Below, piece after piece: positions 51,308 through 63,636 of a stretch of DNA of 64,000 bases. Positions within the stretch are counted from its first letter, which is position 1; each line of letters opens with the position of its first letter. The stretch lies in contig NZ_BBXE01000035.1 in NCBI RefSeq assembly GCF_001570565.1, forward strand, positions 62,001 to 126,000, in the 5' to 3' direction. Under the pieces are notes generated by a model that saw only the letters and a program-made list of their open reading frames with translations, did no database searches and was not told where the DNA came from. Both the position numbers and the translations under genes were made by a program. Source of the DNA: Herbidospora yilanensis (GTDB lineage: Bacteria > Actinomycetota > Actinomycetes > Streptosporangiales > Streptosporangiaceae).

Positions 51308-51379
51308 GGGCGATTAGCTCAGCGGGAGAGCGCTTCGTTCACACCGAAGAGGTCACTGGTTCGATCCCAGTATCGCCCA
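51308..51379 (+). tRNA. tRNA-Val (anticodon CAC)
   Basis: The 72-nt cloverleaf has acceptor GGGCGAT (51308-51314) pairing with ATCGCCC (51372-51378), D stem GCTC/GAGC, anticodon stem CTTCG/CGAAG with loop TTCACAC (anticodon CAC, reading GUG), and T arm ACTGG-TTCGATC-CCAGT. The discriminator is A, and CCA is not encoded (CTC follows). Confidence 0.97.
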
Positions 51380-51389
51380 CTCTGGAGAG

Positions 51390-51432
51390 GGAGACCTGTG
51401 GTCAGCGGCTTTGCCGCTTTCCCCGGGTCTCC
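51390..51432 (+). terminator. Nested hairpin after tRNA-Val
   Basis: An outer stem GGAGACC (51390-51396) pairs with GGTCTCC (51426-51432). Inside it, AGCGGC (51404-51409) pairs with GCCGCT (51413-51418) around TTT. It begins 10 bp after the tRNA and is followed by TTCGTCG. Confidence 0.75.
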
Positions 51433-51640
51433 TTCGTCGTTTACACGGGGGGACGACCCCCCGAACCCCCCGATGCGAAGGGGCTGTCGCCCCCTCGCGC
51501 TCCCTCTGGCGCGCTTGCGCGCCCCTGGCGTCGCTTCGCTCCGGGTCGCTTTCGCTCCTTGCGAAGGGCTCTGCCCTTCGCGCTCCCTGGAATTCCTCGC
51601 TTCGCCCGGGTGGCTCTCGCTTCGCTCGCCGATTTGCCAG
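51390..51640. repeat. Hairpin-rich non-coding stretch downstream of tRNA-Val
   Basis: Seven or more short stem-loops follow one another: the nested tRNA terminator, CGGGGGG-acga-CCCCCCG (51446-51463), GGGGC-tgtc-GCCCC (about 51480), GGCGCGC-tt-GCGCGCC (about 51509), GAAGGGC-tct-GCCCTTC (about 51561), and GCTTCGC-type imperfect copies. No reading frame has normal codon usage. It may be a repetitive non-coding element. Confidence 0.7.
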
Positions 51641-51699
51641 TACCGGCCCAAAGATTCCTTCCGGGTGTCGTCTCTATCGGAAGCCGCACTGTTTGAGGC

Positions 51700-52209
51700 T
51701 GCCACGCGTCGAACAAGGTGGCGAGGCGACGAGATCGACGTTATGGGTCTCGCTCATCAGGCAAGTACCCGTGACGTAGGCCGGGAGATGATCGAACGCG
51801 CCGAAACCGCTGTGGACGAGTTAGCGGTGCCTGCCCGGTCGGGGCCCCCGCCTGCCAAGCTCCGTTAGCGCGTCCTTGTTCATCTGAGCTACACCGCGCC
51901 TCTATCAATAAGACGACGCTTGCCGAGCGTCGGCAACTCCTGGGCGTGAGCGGTTGGCGTCCTCTGCTGGCTGTCACAGGTCGTATAGACGTGCGTCAGT
52001 ACAGGGCCGGCACGGCCCGGCTCGTCACCGCCGGGCAGTTCGCCAAGCAGGCCGAGCATGCCAAGATCGCCGCTTGGTGCTTGGATACCGACACTTGGCG
52101 GGTCACGAAGTTGCTCCCTGAAGTCTGCTCAGCTCGACTCGTCCTGCCGACCGGATTCATTCCGCTACAGAGCACCGATATGGCTAGCATGCGCCAGTGT
52201 CATGAATAG
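51700..52209 (+). pseudogene. Decayed XRE/TPR regulator (C-terminal half)
   Basis: Fragments in successive frames resemble the TPR half of XRE regulators common in Streptomyces and relatives: MGLAHQASTRDVGREMIERA then ETAVDELAV, next VLVHLSYTA in a second frame, then NKTTLAERRQLL, GQFAKQAEHAKIAAWCLDTD and TWRVT in a third. Stops and frame changes separate them and the helix-turn-helix half is missing. The order of fragments matches the family, so this is one broken gene. Confidence 0.65.
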
Positions 52210-52242
52210 TCGGCCTTATCGGCGAGTGCTAGGTTTTCATCC

Positions 52243-53592
52243 ATGGAGAAGCATGCGCTGAGCGACCTGACCCCCGTCGAATTTGAAGAATTCTGCGTCG
52301 ACCTTCTCGGTTTCATGGGCTTCAAGGTGGACTGGAGGAAGGGAAGCAACACGAGTGCCAGTACGGCCGACGGCGGAGTCGATATCATCGCCATATATCC
52401 ACGCGAAGATCCCGACGGATCGCTATACGAAGAGCGCTGGTTCGTCGAGTGCAAGCATTCAACGCTCCGCGCGATCTCAAAATTAGAGGTGGAAAAGCTC
52501 CATCTCGCTTCGAAAGGGCGTGACGAGAAAGCCCATGTGCTGCTGTTCATGACAAGCGGAGCACTCGGGAATTCCGCCAAGGACTACATCGCCACACTCC
52601 GGAGGAGCGAGCAGCCCCTCCGCATTCTGTACTGGGAGCGAAAGCATCTGGAGAAGCTCCTGAGACGAATGTCGTCCGACACCTCCTCGGGCCCGGATCG
52701 GTCCCTGCTCTTTTTGGAGGCGAAAACCCGCCTGACGCACGACGACGTACAGGTACGCACGGGCGGATTGGAGATGTTAGAAGAGTTGGCGGTGTCGTCC
52801 CCTTCGAAGAGACAGGCGGTCATGCGGGCCATGTGCCAGTATCTGAGGAACGATTACCGAGAGACCGTGGACGACGCGCACGTCTTCGCTCAGGACGTCA
52901 TCTCCCGTCATGTCGCGTGGCCGGCCCCCCGGCGCGACCAGGAACCGCCCACGGACTACTGGCCGGACATGGAGATCGACCTGACTGGGGCGCGGCTGAA
53001 GGATCTCGATCTGGATAACGCGTGCATCCGGTCAGCGATATTTGACGATGCGGAATTCCTTGGCGATGTGCGGTTGCAAGAATGTCTCATCGAGGAGAGT
53101 CTCTCCCTCAGGCATGCTCGAGTGGAGGGAAACTTCTGGTTTTCGGGCAGCAAGGTAGGCGGGTCGGCCTCGTTCTCAGCTACGACATTCGGCGGGTCCG
53201 CCTACCTGGGACGCTCAGTTTTCAGAGGGGACACAGATTTCGACCACTGCAGGTTCCACCAGCATGCCAGTTTCGTGTCATGCGATTTCCGTGGCGCGGC
53301 GACGTTTCGCGACACCTCATTCATTGAGTCTGCGGACTTCACCTCACTTCGGGTCAAGCGGGATGCGATATTCAAGGATGCGACTTTCAACGACACGACT
53401 TTCGAACTGGCAGAGTTCGGCGACTTCGTCAATTTCGGCGGCGTGTCCGCCTCGAGAGACGAGCTGAATCTCAGCCGGGCCAGGGTCGTCCAGAAACTGC
53501 TTGGGAACATATGGCCCCTAGGCTATGTCGAGAGACCAGAGAACAGCCGGATGTCACTAGTAGTTCGCGTTCCCGATATCAGGCTCCGGTAG
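52243..53592 (+). CDS. Mrr-type restriction endonuclease domain fused to pentapeptide repeats
   Basis: This 449-residue protein has an N-terminal Mrr_cat domain (about 8-140): TPVEFEEFCVDLLGFMGFKV, then DGGVDIIA with D47 and WFVECKHS with E69 and K71, a complete PD-(D/E)XK set. A helical middle (150-230: VQVRTGGLEMLEELAVSSPS, RQAVMRAMCQYLRNDY) matches the helical lead-in of actinobacterial pentapeptide proteins, and residues 245-425 carry A(D/N)LXX-like pentapeptides (LTGARLKDLDLDNACIRSAI, DTDFDHCRF, ASFVSCDFRGAATFRDTSFI, ESADFTSL). Visible G+C is lower than its neighbours (33 of 60 in 52261-52320). ATG 52243 has only a weak AGG upstream. It probably cleaves DNA. Its target, such as methylated DNA, is unknown. 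Likely horizontally acquired. Confidence 0.85.
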   Translation: MEKHALSDLTPVEFEEFCVDLLGFMGFKVDWRKGSNTSASTADGGVDIIAIYPREDPDGSLYEERWFVECKHSTLRAISKLEVEKLHLASKGRDEKAHVLLFMTSGALGNSAKDYIATLRRSEQPLRILYWERKHLEKLLRRMSSDTSSGPDRSLLFLEAKTRLTHDDVQVRTGGLEMLEELAVSSPSKRQAVMRAMCQYLRNDYRETVDDAHVFAQDVISRHVAWPAPRRDQEPPTDYWPDMEIDLTGARLKDLDLDNACIRSAIFDDAEFLGDVRLQECLIEESLSLRHARVEGNFWFSGSKVGGSASFSATTFGGSAYLGRSVFRGDTDFDHCRFHQHASFVSCDFRGAATFRDTSFIESADFTSLRVKRDAIFKDATFNDTTFELAEFGDFVNFGGVSASRDELNLSRARVVQKLLGNIWPLGYVERPENSRMSLVVRVPDIRLR

Positions 53593-53876
53593 GCAGGGCA
53601 TACAGCATTCGTGTTCGCGGAGCAATCTTCTTCCGAGCCGACTGAGACGTGACGGCTGGATCCCCATGCCGCCCACCGGCATCACAGGTGGCCGTCTGAT
53701 CCACCGACTGTCCAGCGGAGCCGGTCATGCCGACTGCGGGCCGGATCGCGGGTGTCGAGCAGGGCTGGCCGCTCGCCGTTCACTCCCGGGTGTCCAGTGC
53801 CAAGGTGCGGCGTGGCGTCCTGGCGGCCTCCCTCGATTCGGCGACGATCTTGGGGAACCCATCATGGAGGCTGCTC

Positions 53877-54581
53877 GTGGACGTCATCGGCGCCGGTTTC
53901 GGGCGGACCTGCACCCTCTCGCTCAAAGAGGCCCTTGAGACCCTCGGCTTCGGGCCCTGTTATCACATGGCCGATGTCGTCGAAGACCCCCGCCGGATCC
54001 GTCAGTGGCTCGACGTCGGCGACGGGAGGACGGCCGACTGGGACACGATCTTCCAGGGGTTCAGGTCGGCCGTCGACTTTCCCGCCGTCTCCTACTGGCG
54101 GGAGCTGACCGGCCACTATCCCGAGGCCAAGGTCGTGCTGACCGTCCGCGATCCCGGCCGGTGGTACGAGAGCGCCCATGACACGATCTTCCATCGTGCG
54201 GTCGAGAACGATGAGCCCGATTCCCGGTGGCAACGGTGGCTGCACCGGCTGATGTTGCGGCGGGTGCCCGAGATGGCGCTGTTTCCCCGAATGGCCAAGG
54301 CCACGGTCGCCGATCGGGTGTTCGGGGGGCGGCTGGACGACCGGGAGCACTGCATCGAGGTCTTCCTGCGGCACAACGAGGAGGTCAAGGCGGCCGTTCC
54401 GGCCGATCGGCTGCTCGTGTACGAGTGCCGGGAGGGGTGGGAGCCGCTGTGCCGGTTCCTCGGGGTGCCGGTTCCCGACGTGCCCTTTCCGCACGTCAAC
54501 GATCGCACCCAGTTCAACCGCCGGCGGCCCTGGCGGGAACTGAGGCGGCTCGTCCTCGGGCGGCGTCGGCTGGGAGGCTGA
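53877..54581 (+). CDS. Sulfotransferase-family protein, copy 1
   Basis: This 234-residue P-loop protein of the Sulfotransfer_4 type has the 5'-phosphosulfate loop VIGAGFGRTCTLSLKEALE (residues 3-21) and 3'-phosphate-binding VVLTVRDPGRWYESAHDTIF. The C-terminal block LLVYECREGWEPLCRFLGVP is typical. GTG 53877 has GGAGG 6 bp upstream, and the longer open frame is not conserved. It is a close paralogue of the gene at 62947, including the GGAGG-6 bp-GTG start region. It should transfer sulfate from PAPS to an unknown acceptor. Its 3' end overlaps the convergent kinase gene by 68 bp. Confidence 0.87.
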   Translation: MDVIGAGFGRTCTLSLKEALETLGFGPCYHMADVVEDPRRIRQWLDVGDGRTADWDTIFQGFRSAVDFPAVSYWRELTGHYPEAKVVLTVRDPGRWYESAHDTIFHRAVENDEPDSRWQRWLHRLMLRRVPEMALFPRMAKATVADRVFGGRLDDREHCIEVFLRHNEEVKAAVPADRLLVYECREGWEPLCRFLGVPVPDVPFPHVNDRTQFNRRRPWRELRRLVLGRRRLGG

Positions 54582-55710
54582 CGGTGAAGACGGCGCCTTC
54601 GCCGGGGGCGCCGGCGACCGTCAGGATTCCGTCGTGGCCGTCGACGACCTCTTTCACCAGGGCCAGGCCCAGGCCGTAGCCGCTGCTCTCCGTCACGTGG
54701 CGGGTGAACAGGCGGGCGGGGTCTCCGGGGGCCAGGCCGACGCCGTCGTCGGCGACGGTCAGGCTGACGCGGTCGGCGGCGGAGGCGAGGGTGATGGTGA
54801 TGCGGCCGCCGGGGGCGGTGTGGGTGAGGGCGTTGTCCACCAGGGCCGACAGGACGCGGCGGAGGGCGGGGGCGGCGCCGCTGACGACCGTCGGGCCGTT
54901 CTCGCGGTGCACCTCGATGGTGACGCCGCGGGCCTCGGCGCGGGGCGACTCGGCCTCGGCCAGGTCCTGGGCCAGTGTGGCCAGGTCGACGGGGCGGCGG
55001 AGGCGGTCGCTGAGCAGCAGGTCGTCGACGACCTCGCCGAGTTCGCGGGTGCCGGTGACGAGGCGGTCGACGTCCTCCAGCGGGAGTTCACCGCGTCTGA
55101 GGCGGATCGAGACGAGCTGGGCCCTGGTGTGCAGGCGGGCCAGGGGGGTGCGCAGTTCGTGGCTGACGTCCTCGGTGAAGCGGCGCTGGCGGGCCAGGGC
55201 CTCGCCGAGCGGGGCGATGGCGCGGCAGGCGATCAGGTGGGCGATCAGCACGGCGGCCAGCAGGGCGACGAACTCGGCGGCGATCAGGGTGTGCAGCAGG
55301 CGCCGGCGTTCGGAGACCTGGTAGCGCAGGTCGAGCGCGGCCTGGCGGATGACGTCGCCGCGCCGTTCGGTCCGGACGAGGTAGTCGAGGCCGCCGAGTT
55401 CGACACGGTCGACGCGGGTCCCGCCGTCGCGGGCGACGGCCCTGATCCCGGCCCGCCACGGGAGGGCCTCGGGCGCGCCCGGCGAGCGGCGGAGGGTGTC
55501 TCCCTCGGCCTCGACCAGCCACAGGCAGGGCGGCGGGCTGGTGATGGAGGCGCGTTCGACCCCGGCCCGGACCTCGCGGCGGGCCGCCGCGTCCTGCTGG
55601 CCGACCATCACGCTGTAGACGAGGGCGCCCATGATGAGCAGCAGCACGGAGATCGCCCCGGCGGTCCGCAGGGTCACCCGGCGGCGGGCGCGGGTCAGCA
55701 GCGTGTTCAC
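54514..55710 (-). CDS. OmpR-partner sensor histidine kinase
   Basis: This 398-residue membrane kinase has TM1 at about 15-35, an extracytoplasmic loop (36-145), TM2 (about 150-172: LIAAEFVALLAAVLIAHLIA), a HAMP-like link, HisKA with FTEDVSHELRTPLARLHTRA, and HATPase_c with DNALTHTAPGG, DDGVGLAPGDPARLF and GYGLGLALVKEVVDGH. It autophosphorylates and passes phosphate to the OmpR-type regulator whose stop it overlaps (GTGA at 55707-55710). Its tail overlaps the sulfotransferase gene on the opposite strand. Confidence 0.93.
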   Translation of the reverse strand: MNTLLTRARRRVTLRTAGAISVLLLIMGALVYSVMVGQQDAAARREVRAGVERASITSPPPCLWLVEAEGDTLRRSPGAPEALPWRAGIRAVARDGGTRVDRVELGGLDYLVRTERRGDVIRQAALDLRYQVSERRRLLHTLIAAEFVALLAAVLIAHLIACRAIAPLGEALARQRRFTEDVSHELRTPLARLHTRAQLVSIRLRRGELPLEDVDRLVTGTRELGEVVDDLLLSDRLRRPVDLATLAQDLAEAESPRAEARGVTIEVHRENGPTVVSGAAPALRRVLSALVDNALTHTAPGGRITITLASAADRVSLTVADDGVGLAPGDPARLFTRHVTESSGYGLGLALVKEVVDGHDGILTVAGAPGEGAVFTVSLPADAARGRAASVPARAAGG

Positions 55711-56366
55711 AGGCTGCCCAGCCGGTAGCCGACGCCGCGGACCGTCCTGACCACCTCTGAGCCGAGTTTGCCGCGCAGGTAGTAGACGTAGGTGTCGACG
55801 ATCGACTCGGTGGTGGCGCCGTCGAAGACGCCCCGGCGCAGCGACGCCCTCGTGTGGACGTGCCGGGGGCGCACGGCCAGGGCGCGGAGCAGGCGGCACT
55901 CCTGGCCCGAGAGGGGCACCTGCGCGCCGTCGGGCAGGCACACCGCCTGGGCGCCGAGGTCGAGCCAGGCGCGGCCGAGCGGGAGCACTTCGGCGTGGTC
56001 GGCGTGGCGGCGGTGCAGCGCGCGCACGCGGGCCAGGAGTTCGTCGACCTCGAAGGGTTTGACCAGGTAGTCCTCCGCACCGGCGTCGAGGCCCGTCACG
56101 CGGTCGTGCACGGTGCCGAAGGCGGTGAGGAAGAGCGCCGGGACGGTGACGGCCCGGCGCCGGAGGCGGCGGAGCAGGTCGAGGCCGTCGAGGGCGGGCA
56201 GCCCCCGGTCGACGATCAGGACGTCGTAGGCCCGGCTGAGCGCCAGGTGGAGGCCGCGTTGCCCCTCCAGCGCGTGGTCGACCTCGTAGCCGTGGTCGGT
56301 GAGGATCTCGACGAGGAGCGCGCCGAGTTCTCGGTCGTCTTCGATGAGCAGCAGCCGACGTGCCAC
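55707..56366 (-). CDS. OmpR/PhoB-family response regulator
   Basis: This 219-residue regulator has a receiver (1-115) with phospho-acceptor D53 (VLIVDRGLPALDG), Thr in FLTAFG and Lys in YLVKPFEVDELL, then a winged-helix DNA-binding domain (125-219: LSGQECRLLRALAVRPRHVH, TESIVDTYVYYLRGKLG, VRTVRGVGYRLGSL). It is cotranscribed with the kinase. Two CTGTCACCG repeats begin 10 bp upstream of its start and suggest autoregulation. It lies 82 bp downstream of the antiporter end, so it may respond to a state that the upstream operon affects. Confidence 0.95.
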   Translation of the reverse strand: MARRLLLIEDDRELGALLVEILTDHGYEVDHALEGQRGLHLALSRAYDVLIVDRGLPALDGLDLLRRLRRRAVTVPALFLTAFGTVHDRVTGLDAGAEDYLVKPFEVDELLARVRALHRRHADHAEVLPLGRAWLDLGAQAVCLPDGAQVPLSGQECRLLRALAVRPRHVHTRASLRRGVFDGATTESIVDTYVYYLRGKLGSEVVRTVRGVGYRLGSL

Positions 56367-62855: not shown

Positions 62856-62946
62856 GACGCGTCTCCTTCGGGTCTGGGAAAGCGGCGACGGACGCGATAC
62901 AACCACCGTGAGATCAGAGCCCGATCAGACCCCCGGGAGGCCGCTC

Positions 62947-63636
62947 GTGGACGTCATCGGCGCGGGATTCGGCCGGACCGGCACCCGGTCGCTGAAGGCG
63001 GCACTCGAACTGCTCGGATTCGGCCCCTGCTACCACATGTCCACCGTGGTCGCCGAGCCGCGCCGGGTCAGGCAGTGGCTCGACGTGGGCGAGGGGGGGC
63101 CGGCCGACTGGGACACGATCTTCGCGGGCCACCGGTCGGCGGTCGACTTCCCGGCGGCGTCGTACTGGCGCGAACTCGCCGCCCACCACCCGGCGGCGAA
63201 GGTGATCCTGACGGTCCGCGACCCCGGCCGCTGGTACGACAGCGCCCGCGAGACCATCTTCCGCCGCGAGATCGACGCCGGCACGCCCCAACCGTGGCGG
63301 CGCCGGGTGATGAGCCGCCTGATCGCCTGGCGGGCGCCCGATTTCGCGATCTTCCCCCGGATGTCGAAGGCGACCGTGTCCGACCGGCTGTTCGGCGGCC
63401 GGGTGGCCGACCGCGACCACTGCGTCGCGGTGTTCCGCCGCCACGTCGAGGAGGTCCGCGCGACGATCCCGGCCGACCGGCTGCTGGTGTTCGAGTGCCG
63501 GGAGGGCTGGGAGCCGCTGTGCCGGTTTCTGGGGGTGCCGGTGCCGGACGTGCCGTTTCCGCGGGCCAACGAGCGGGCGGCTTTTCGGGCCAAGCGGCCG
63601 GGGCGGGCGCTGGGCCTGATCGTCCGGGGCCGCTGA
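62947..63636 (+). CDS. Sulfotransferase-family protein, copy 2
   Basis: This 229-residue paralogue of the gene at 53877 shares VIGAGFGRTGTRSLKAALEL, GFGPCYHM, RQWLDVG, SYWRELA, VILTVRDPGRWYDSARETIF and CREGWEPLCRFLGVPVPDVP. The P-loop GRTGTRSL is intact, whereas copy 1 has GRTCTLSL. GTG 62947 has GGGAGG 6 bp upstream. Only 91 bp separate it from the divergent ligase gene, so the two may share regulation and the protein may sulfate the pathway's product. Confidence 0.87.
   Translation: MDVIGAGFGRTGTRSLKAALELLGFGPCYHMSTVVAEPRRVRQWLDVGEGGPADWDTIFAGHRSAVDFPAASYWRELAAHHPAAKVILTVRDPGRWYDSARETIFRREIDAGTPQPWRRRVMSRLIAWRAPDFAIFPRMSKATVSDRLFGGRVADRDHCVAVFRRHVEEVRATIPADRLLVFECREGWEPLCRFLGVPVPDVPFPRANERAAFRAKRPGRALGLIVRGR

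Follow-up and report, generated by a model that had tools for sequence, protein, structure and literature searches.

A nuclease-type gene with a stem and pentapeptide beta-helix module in Herbidospora yilanensis: a candidate self-contained defense effector

The fusion gene and its genomic site

The window, which is the whole stretch of 64,000 nucleotides of DNA from the soil actinobacterium Herbidospora yilanensis that was analyzed (contig NZ_BBXE01000035.1), contains a gene for a 449-residue protein, as seen in Table 1. The open reading frame starts with ATG. Its N-terminal Mrr_cat match (Pfam PF04471, E 4.1e-14) scored 53.1 bits against a cut-off of 21, and Pentapeptide_3 (PF13576) was matched in five stretches of the C-terminal half with an E of 6e-22. 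An AlphaFold2 model built on a 34-row alignment had a mean pLDDT of 90.6 and a pTM of 0.77, with an alpha/beta fold to about residue 131, helices from 133 to 224 and short regular beta strands from 243 to 442. Ten-residue means of pLDDT were 96 to 98 across residues 241–400, and the model is uncertain at residues 35–42, where pLDDT is below 50. Residues F and L recur at a lag of five in 241–400, at a level that only 2 of 5000 shuffles reached; a cruder fixed-phase pentapeptide score showed no excess (13, compared to a shuffle mean of 13.7). The original prediction of an Mrr_cat domain followed by a helical linker and a pentapeptide beta-helix was confirmed, as were its catalytic residues D47 and E69-C70-K71, which are conserved in the alignments. 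It was also right that the gene is lower in G+C, with 58.3% compared to 70.5% for the window. Judged by its Pfam domain, the window protein is an Mrr_cat enzyme.

Table 1. Features of the fusion gene and its surroundings, in window positions
Feature	Position	Strand	Basis
tRNA-Val (CAC), within the conserved left flank; the variable segment follows after ~250 bp	51308..51380	+	ARAGORN
2.2-kb segment, unmatched at the equivalent site in 6/6 congeners	51630..53807		Genus DNA search, blastn of flanks
Fusion gene, Mrr - helical stem - pentapeptide, 449 aa	52243..53592	+	ORF list, Pfam, AlphaFold2, five full-length homologues
Mrr_cat PD-(D/E)XK nuclease domain, residues 7-138	52261..52656	+	Pfam PF04471 (4.1e-14), Foldseek
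D47, expected catalytic aspartate	52381..52383	+	Invariant in 6/6 fusion and 8/8 stand-alone Mrr rows
E69-C70-K71, expected catalytic ExK motif	52447..52455	+	5/5 rows; E69 and K71 in 14 Mrr rows
Helical stem, residues 153-224, four helices	52699..52914	+	AlphaFold2, own HMM across the stem and the beginning of the beta-helix
Pentapeptide right-handed beta-helix, residues 243-442	52969..53568	+	Pfam PF13576, AlphaFold2 strands, lag-5 periodicity

A Foldseek search of the PDB with the model placed 1y88 (AF1548) at the top with an E of 0.019, and no PDB match fell below 1e-3; Cap4 ranked second at 0.088, which is not significant. Three matches below 1e-3 were found in a viral structure library, one of which, at 3.1e-4, is named a restriction endonuclease. 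No solved pentapeptide protein was present among the best 50 matches listed for the model. With PADLOC, the window protein gave weak matches only, and these to the nuclease part only, the best being PDC-S02 at 1.5e-6. The candidate family PDC-M58A, also an Mrr-type protein, was second for the window protein, the top match in three of the four fusions scanned and the sole family listed for four stand-alone Mrr relatives scanned. The fusion differs from PDC-M58A in length, since that profile has 154 residues and, therefore, no room for a pentapeptide module. Pfam detected no SAVED domain in the window protein or in eight relatives. An identity with HalA of Hailong was rejected (NCBIfam, 8.8 bits against 250, E 0.84).

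The tRNA named in the original prediction is a tRNA-Val. Homology of the left flank, including this tRNA, ended at window positions 51609–51629 in all six congeners. The right-flank match restarted at 53808–53873 in four of them (G163, G033, G083 and G109) and at 54565 in G130 and G149, in which the sulfotransferase gene that borders the site on the right in the window lies beyond the left flank (L182, L183). Between the flanks, each congener carries different DNA of 1.9 to 24 kb and, thus, the site is variable within the genus. The fusion was found in none of these segments and is present in one of the seven genomes of the genus, so either the window's genome acquired it recently or other genomes of the genus lost it. 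Inside the cargo of G083, there is a 173-bp copy of the 3' half of the tRNA-Val and the DNA downstream of it, at 97% identity (L180:6271-6443). Since integrative elements leave att-like repeats of this kind, the tRNA-Val site appears to be used for integration. A tRNA-Val att duplicate in the window was rejected, as none was found in 51641–56000.

Two other neighbors named in the original prediction fared less well. The "dead regulator" at 51946–52209 had no Pfam hit at 0.01, and the "hairpin array" was reduced to two inverted repeats in 51381–51640, although 51445–51628, downstream of the tRNA-Val, belongs to a repeat dispersed through the genus, with at least dozens of matches, about 73–90% identical, in 7/7 genomes. 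Elsewhere in the window, the sulfotransferase stretch at 53866–54505 has a second copy at 62936–63575, with 76% identity. The cargo of G033 (L178, L179) is about 24 kb long and includes genes for proteins that, by eye, resemble vWA, tubulin-like, CRP-like and cyclase-like ones.

Recurrence and conservation of the Mrr fusion

The original prediction would have suffered had the fusion been absent from relatives, but the full fusion was found in 6 of the 297 genomes of the host's order. These are the window's own genome (G000), Nonomuraea deserti (G003), Spongiactinospora gelatinilytica (G068), Actinomadura sp. NBRC 104412 (G182), [Actinomadura] parvosata (G200, N. parvosata below) and G707. A single-protein family scan of 297 genomes recovered five of the six, and a pattern scan of genome contigs gave 13 relatives, which were four fusions and nine Mrr proteins with other or truncated C-termini. 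The other fusions are 31–34% identical to the window protein over the whole alignment. The copies of N. parvosata and G707 are 97% identical, and those of Spongiactinospora and N. parvosata 73%.

Wider searches returned little. The fusion was seen only in the window's own genome in a scan of 396 genomes of the phylum, with at most four candidates scored in each, and no additional type of nuclease head was found there or in 394 genomes of the class. Misses are likely in both scans because just four or five candidates were scored per genome. A single-protein search of genome contigs gave nine stretches and no relative, the same kind of search of viral contigs gave no match, and neither did tblastn against phage records. 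Plasmid records were matched by tblastn in 71 cases, none covering 80% of the query. A separate Mrr gene and module gene in G261 were dropped; the match was weak (37 bits), the protein has 394 residues, and it carries QAK compared to ECK in the fusions. In genome G091, a relic of an Mrr relative with an in-frame stop was observed (L104:9201-9800).

The conservation of the nuclease residues in homologues of the same architecture was borne out. D47, E69 and K71 are invariant in the six fusions and the eight stand-alone Mrr relatives of a 14-row alignment, and D47 and E69-C70-K71, including C70, are invariant in all five rows of a smaller one. Between the Spongiactinospora and N. parvosata copies, dN was 0.168 and dS 1.27, and pN/pS was low throughout, at 0.143/0.737 for the Mrr domain, 0.138/0.578 for the stem and 0.163/0.540 for the beta-helix. 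In this one well-separated pair, all three parts are shown to be under purifying selection. The close pair of N. parvosata and G707 indicated weak constraint (dN 0.013 compared to dS 0.036).

In an Mrr tree, ten stand-alone relatives formed one group (98/99) with the six fusions outside it. The fusions did not come out as a group of their own (three changes, 0/200 bootstrap trees), and two outgroup branches, both very long, were placed among them. The six fusions may have had a single origin.

The stem and beta-helix module and its other heads

A pentapeptide helix had been predicted to be an odd partner for an Mrr nuclease. The module was surveyed with our own HMM, which spans the stem and the beginning of the beta-helix and was run over loci chosen from hits and, therefore, not over a random sample. 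Among 107 distinct module ORFs, 84 had hydrophobic (membrane-type) N-termini as called by a simple hydrophobicity window rather than a trained predictor, six had Mrr heads, one an HNH head and one a REase-like head, two were weak hits, and 13 had neither a hydrophobic call nor a nuclease-type head; by eye, the 13 were truncated ORFs, other frames and tandem modules. Stem matches in other module proteins had E values of about 1e-9 to 1e-11. Going by the survey, the stem and beta-helix are a common actinobacterial module in its own right. The pairing is thus no chance oddity, and the module mostly stands behind hydrophobic N-termini. The fusions have a stem and beta-helix homologous to those of the hydrophobic-headed actinobacterial proteins, but the latter carry a membrane-type head and are separated from the fusions by a supported branch of the module tree.

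The HNH head belongs to L031 (genome G050). Its matches were to the nuclease half of the CBASS HNH-SAVED effectors (PADLOC SAVED_HNH, 6.8e-30) and to HNH-SAVED chains in the PDB (7rwk at 8.3e-14 and 8fm1 at 5e-9). No second protein matching both this head and the module was found in 295 genomes at 1e-12.

The REase-like head, that of L029 (genome G218), had no Pfam match. Its model (pLDDT 83.4, pTM 0.56) was matched by Foldseek at ranks 1 to 9 exclusively to chains of LmuA, Avs3, Cap4 and Hachiman, two of them below 1e-3. The match to LmuA of Lamassu was at 1e-5, yet at 18 A over 425 columns; those to Avs3 (2.7e-3), Cap4 (3.3e-3) and a Hachiman entry (4.3e-3) covered 269–282 columns at 5.5–8.3 A. 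The likeness to these proteins lies in the fold of the head. L029 differs from them in its partner, which is the pentapeptide module, and in its degenerate active site, with GVRR at the expected position of QxK. Because of this replacement, the heads need not all cut DNA. Heads of the L029 type were found at 1e-15 in 8 of 289 genomes, G218 included. L250, L251, L253 and L254 retain the catalytic QxK, and other residues stand in its place in L029, L248, L249 and L252. Behind this type of head, Pfam found NTPase domains of the STAND/AAA kind in L248, L250 and L252, one family each and just above the cut-off, while L249 gave only HTH matches and, by eye, a P-loop-like motif.

The HNH head and the LmuA-like head are each a single sighting. 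In a tree of 48 modules, in which 40 non-nuclease modules were drawn at random from 53, the eight modules with nuclease-type heads lay on one side of a branch (97/89) found in 96% of bootstrap trees; the non-nuclease set includes L037, which has no hydrophobic call. The placement of L029 and L031 is unsure because both are long branches that meet. L029 and two Mrr fusions (L006, L007) have a C-terminal C-x2-C-x5-C tail in common, which also points to an exchange of heads.

Proposed function and the alternatives

Neighboring genes, picked by eye, were scanned with PADLOC for defense families. PADLOC-matched genes were found within 10 kb of the fusion at four of the five relatives (one match being weak), but not at the window copy, for which ten chosen adjoining ORFs gave zero hits at 1e-5. 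In G707, the neighbors are Cas3g (2.3e-256), Cas56g (3.8e-150) and Cas7g (5.7e-28), and 4.0 kb separate the fusion from the closest of them. Chance was judged from single-copy markers only. Cas3g has one copy in the 13.1 Mb of G707 at an E of 1e-30, 6.8 kb from the fusion, and, by a hand calculation, a random point would have such a copy no more than 10 kb away with a chance of about 0.15%. In the Actinomadura genome (G182), DrmA (4e-303) lies 4.0 kb away and DrmB (1.7e-8) is cut by the end of the stretch; DrmA occurs at three loci in this genome (E 1e-30) and, therefore, the case from this neighborhood is weaker. An Mrr-ResIII helicase lies 7 kb from the fusion in N. deserti, and in N. parvosata a 1228-residue NB-ARC protein lies 4.3 kb away (NB-ARC 1e-6, weak LmuA 1.6e-6). 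The Spongiactinospora contig, at 6.9 kb, is too short to judge; one neighbor was scanned and had no PADLOC hit.

We favor, with a probability of roughly 0.55, a self-contained nuclease effector, most likely in anti-phage or anti-plasmid defense, whose Mrr domain cuts DNA and whose module gates this head. The N-terminal Mrr-type domain would be the DNA cutter, and the helical stem and pentapeptide beta-helix would be a separate control module that keeps the nuclease inactive, with the heads held apart or shielded. Upon an invasion signal, the module would alter its assembly state and the nuclease heads would act on DNA. The original prediction put forward a self-contained sensor-nuclease, and an effector of this kind, encoded by one gene together with its control module, is likelier because two other nuclease-type heads were found on the same module; the nuclease activity, the module as a sensor or oligomerization switch and the role in defense are what we infer.

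Elsewhere, the HNH head is joined to SAVED and the Cap4/LmuA-like head to NTPase domains of the STAND/AAA kind. By analogy, the best reading is that the pentapeptide module would fill the slot held in those proteins by SAVED or STAND sensors. In Cap5 of CBASS, the HNH head has been proposed to be activated by the stacking of ligand-bound SAVED domains (PMC8568899, in excerpt). The fusions are like Cap5 in having a nuclease head and one C-terminal module in a single chain, and L031 even has a Cap5-type HNH head. They are unlike it in that none of the fusions scanned with Pfam showed a SAVED domain and no cyclase gene was recognized by eye near the HNH fusion. As for a CD-NTase gene, the zero PADLOC hits in the ten ORFs apply to the window, and the other fusion loci were partly scanned. 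We read the window protein as one that would work like a sensor-nuclease and assign it to none of CBASS, Lamassu and PDC-M55.

Another explanation, which we consider unlikely, is a type IV modification-dependent restriction enzyme, in which the winged helix of Mrr has given way to the stem and beta-helix, which read modified or oddly shaped DNA so that the Mrr domain cuts nearby. The fusion shares with EcoKMrr and the type IV enzymes the Mrr_cat PD-(D/E)XK domain with its conserved D and (E/Q)xK, and the described Mrr-type enzymes, such as EcoKMrr and MspJI, pair a catalytic domain with one that reads DNA or its modification (excerpts of PMC12707154). Also, no methylase gene was recognized by eye among the called genes of the window. 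The fusion has ExK compared to QxK in EcoKMrr (excerpts of PMC12707154), and in place of a winged helix it has the C-terminal helical-pentapeptide module; neither Pfam nor AlphaFold2 showed a winged-helix domain N-terminal to the nuclease, for which there is no space because Mrr_cat starts at residue 7. Against this explanation, a module that reads DNA would not be expected behind the hydrophobic N-termini of 84 of the 107 surveyed ORFs, the pentapeptide part has a mildly acidic charge, and the HNH and LmuA-like heads join SAVED or NTPase modules elsewhere. For EcoKMrr itself, control through a switch in oligomeric state has been described (excerpts of PMC12707154), which we count in favor of a gated nuclease.

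The acidity of the beta-helix could suggest a DNA mimic that sits in the nuclease cleft of its own protein, or a gyrase binder, which phage DNA or topology stress would dislodge. Gyrase is bound by Qnr and MfpA. The window protein is weakly similar to the Qnr family (NCBIfam, E 0.0049), but its 16.6 bits are far under the curated cut-off of 240, so that it is not placed in Qnr/MfpA. The net charge of the beta-helix, -6 in the window protein and -6 to -13 across five aligned rows, is modest and neither proves nor excludes DNA mimicry. Since the hydrophobic-headed relatives are left unexplained as well, we regard this explanation as improbable.

We also give little weight to the view that the fusion is an accessory to multi-gene defense systems, for example as the fourth subunit of PDC-M55, rather than a stand-alone protein. 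It arises from the Actinomadura locus, where a complete set of PDC-M55A (1.2e-168), PDC-M55B (3.5e-118) and PDC-M55C (5.9e-259) was found by PADLOC; the end of PDC-M55C is 67 bp from the start of the fusion, on the same strand, and this genome has one PDC-M55C copy in 7.9 Mb at 1e-30. The absence of a partner, as originally predicted, thus seems to apply to most copies, but this one may have a partner. PDC-M55C is present in just two of the six fusion-bearing genomes and adjoins the fusion in one. The complete set was found only at the Actinomadura locus; at the window, no PDC-M55A, B or C was matched among the ten chosen ORFs, and the PDC-M55C match of this genome is on a different contig (C42). 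An operon with a conserved partner was dropped, as no recurring gene was seen by eye in the neighborhoods read, save a short upstream ORF common to the near-identical copies of N. parvosata and G707.

A non-defense role, as a nuclease of a mobile element or stress response with a scaffold that shares variable islands with defense genes, would suit the module genes that plasmids also carry and the cargo of the six congeners, in which no recurring defense genes were evident by eye, but it is hardly probable given three heads that are each related to restriction or anti-phage nucleases and the single-copy CRISPR and PDC-M55 markers that adjoin fusions.

The proposed self-contained, gated nuclease is made of known parts: Mrr_cat, HNH and Cap4-type nucleases and pentapeptide repeats. 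Pentapeptide repeats in conflict proteins have been published already (PMC7159879, PMC8195603, PMC10853773 and PMC12419801, each in excerpt). The conflict proteins of Aravind and co-workers are like the fusions in having pentapeptide repeats as one part and Mrr-like REases among the effectors, but their partners in the excerpted text are vWA, TRADD-N and Orc/Cdc6, with no nuclease-stem-pentapeptide chain (PMC7159879, PMC8195603, PMC10853773). Nor was such a chain described in the excerpts of the full-text literature matches listed, a scope outside which lie most subscription journals and all preprints.

A broader and more tentative possibility is that the module is a new class of actinobacterial invasion sensor with interchangeable effectors, which would be nuclease-type heads in some proteins and, in most, membrane helices acting as pores. 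If so, the common membrane-pentapeptide proteins of actinobacteria would be one large hidden immune-effector family, and the many hydrophobic-headed copies would become candidates for this widespread group. An unexplained module that is common in these bacteria would gain a function, different heads should share one trigger, and SAVED and STAND would be joined by a further type of control module for the HNH and Cap4/LmuA heads.

Other arrangements of the module were observed as well. L037 and L147 each have a tandem pair of stem-pentapeptide modules within a single protein, in which no head was recognized. In L009 and L015, a hydrophobic-headed module is followed by TPR-like repeats, which were below the Pfam cut-offs in L009 and seen by eye in L015. 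Two module genes lie about 2–6 kb apart in L140 (G170), L135 (G227) and L121 (G005).
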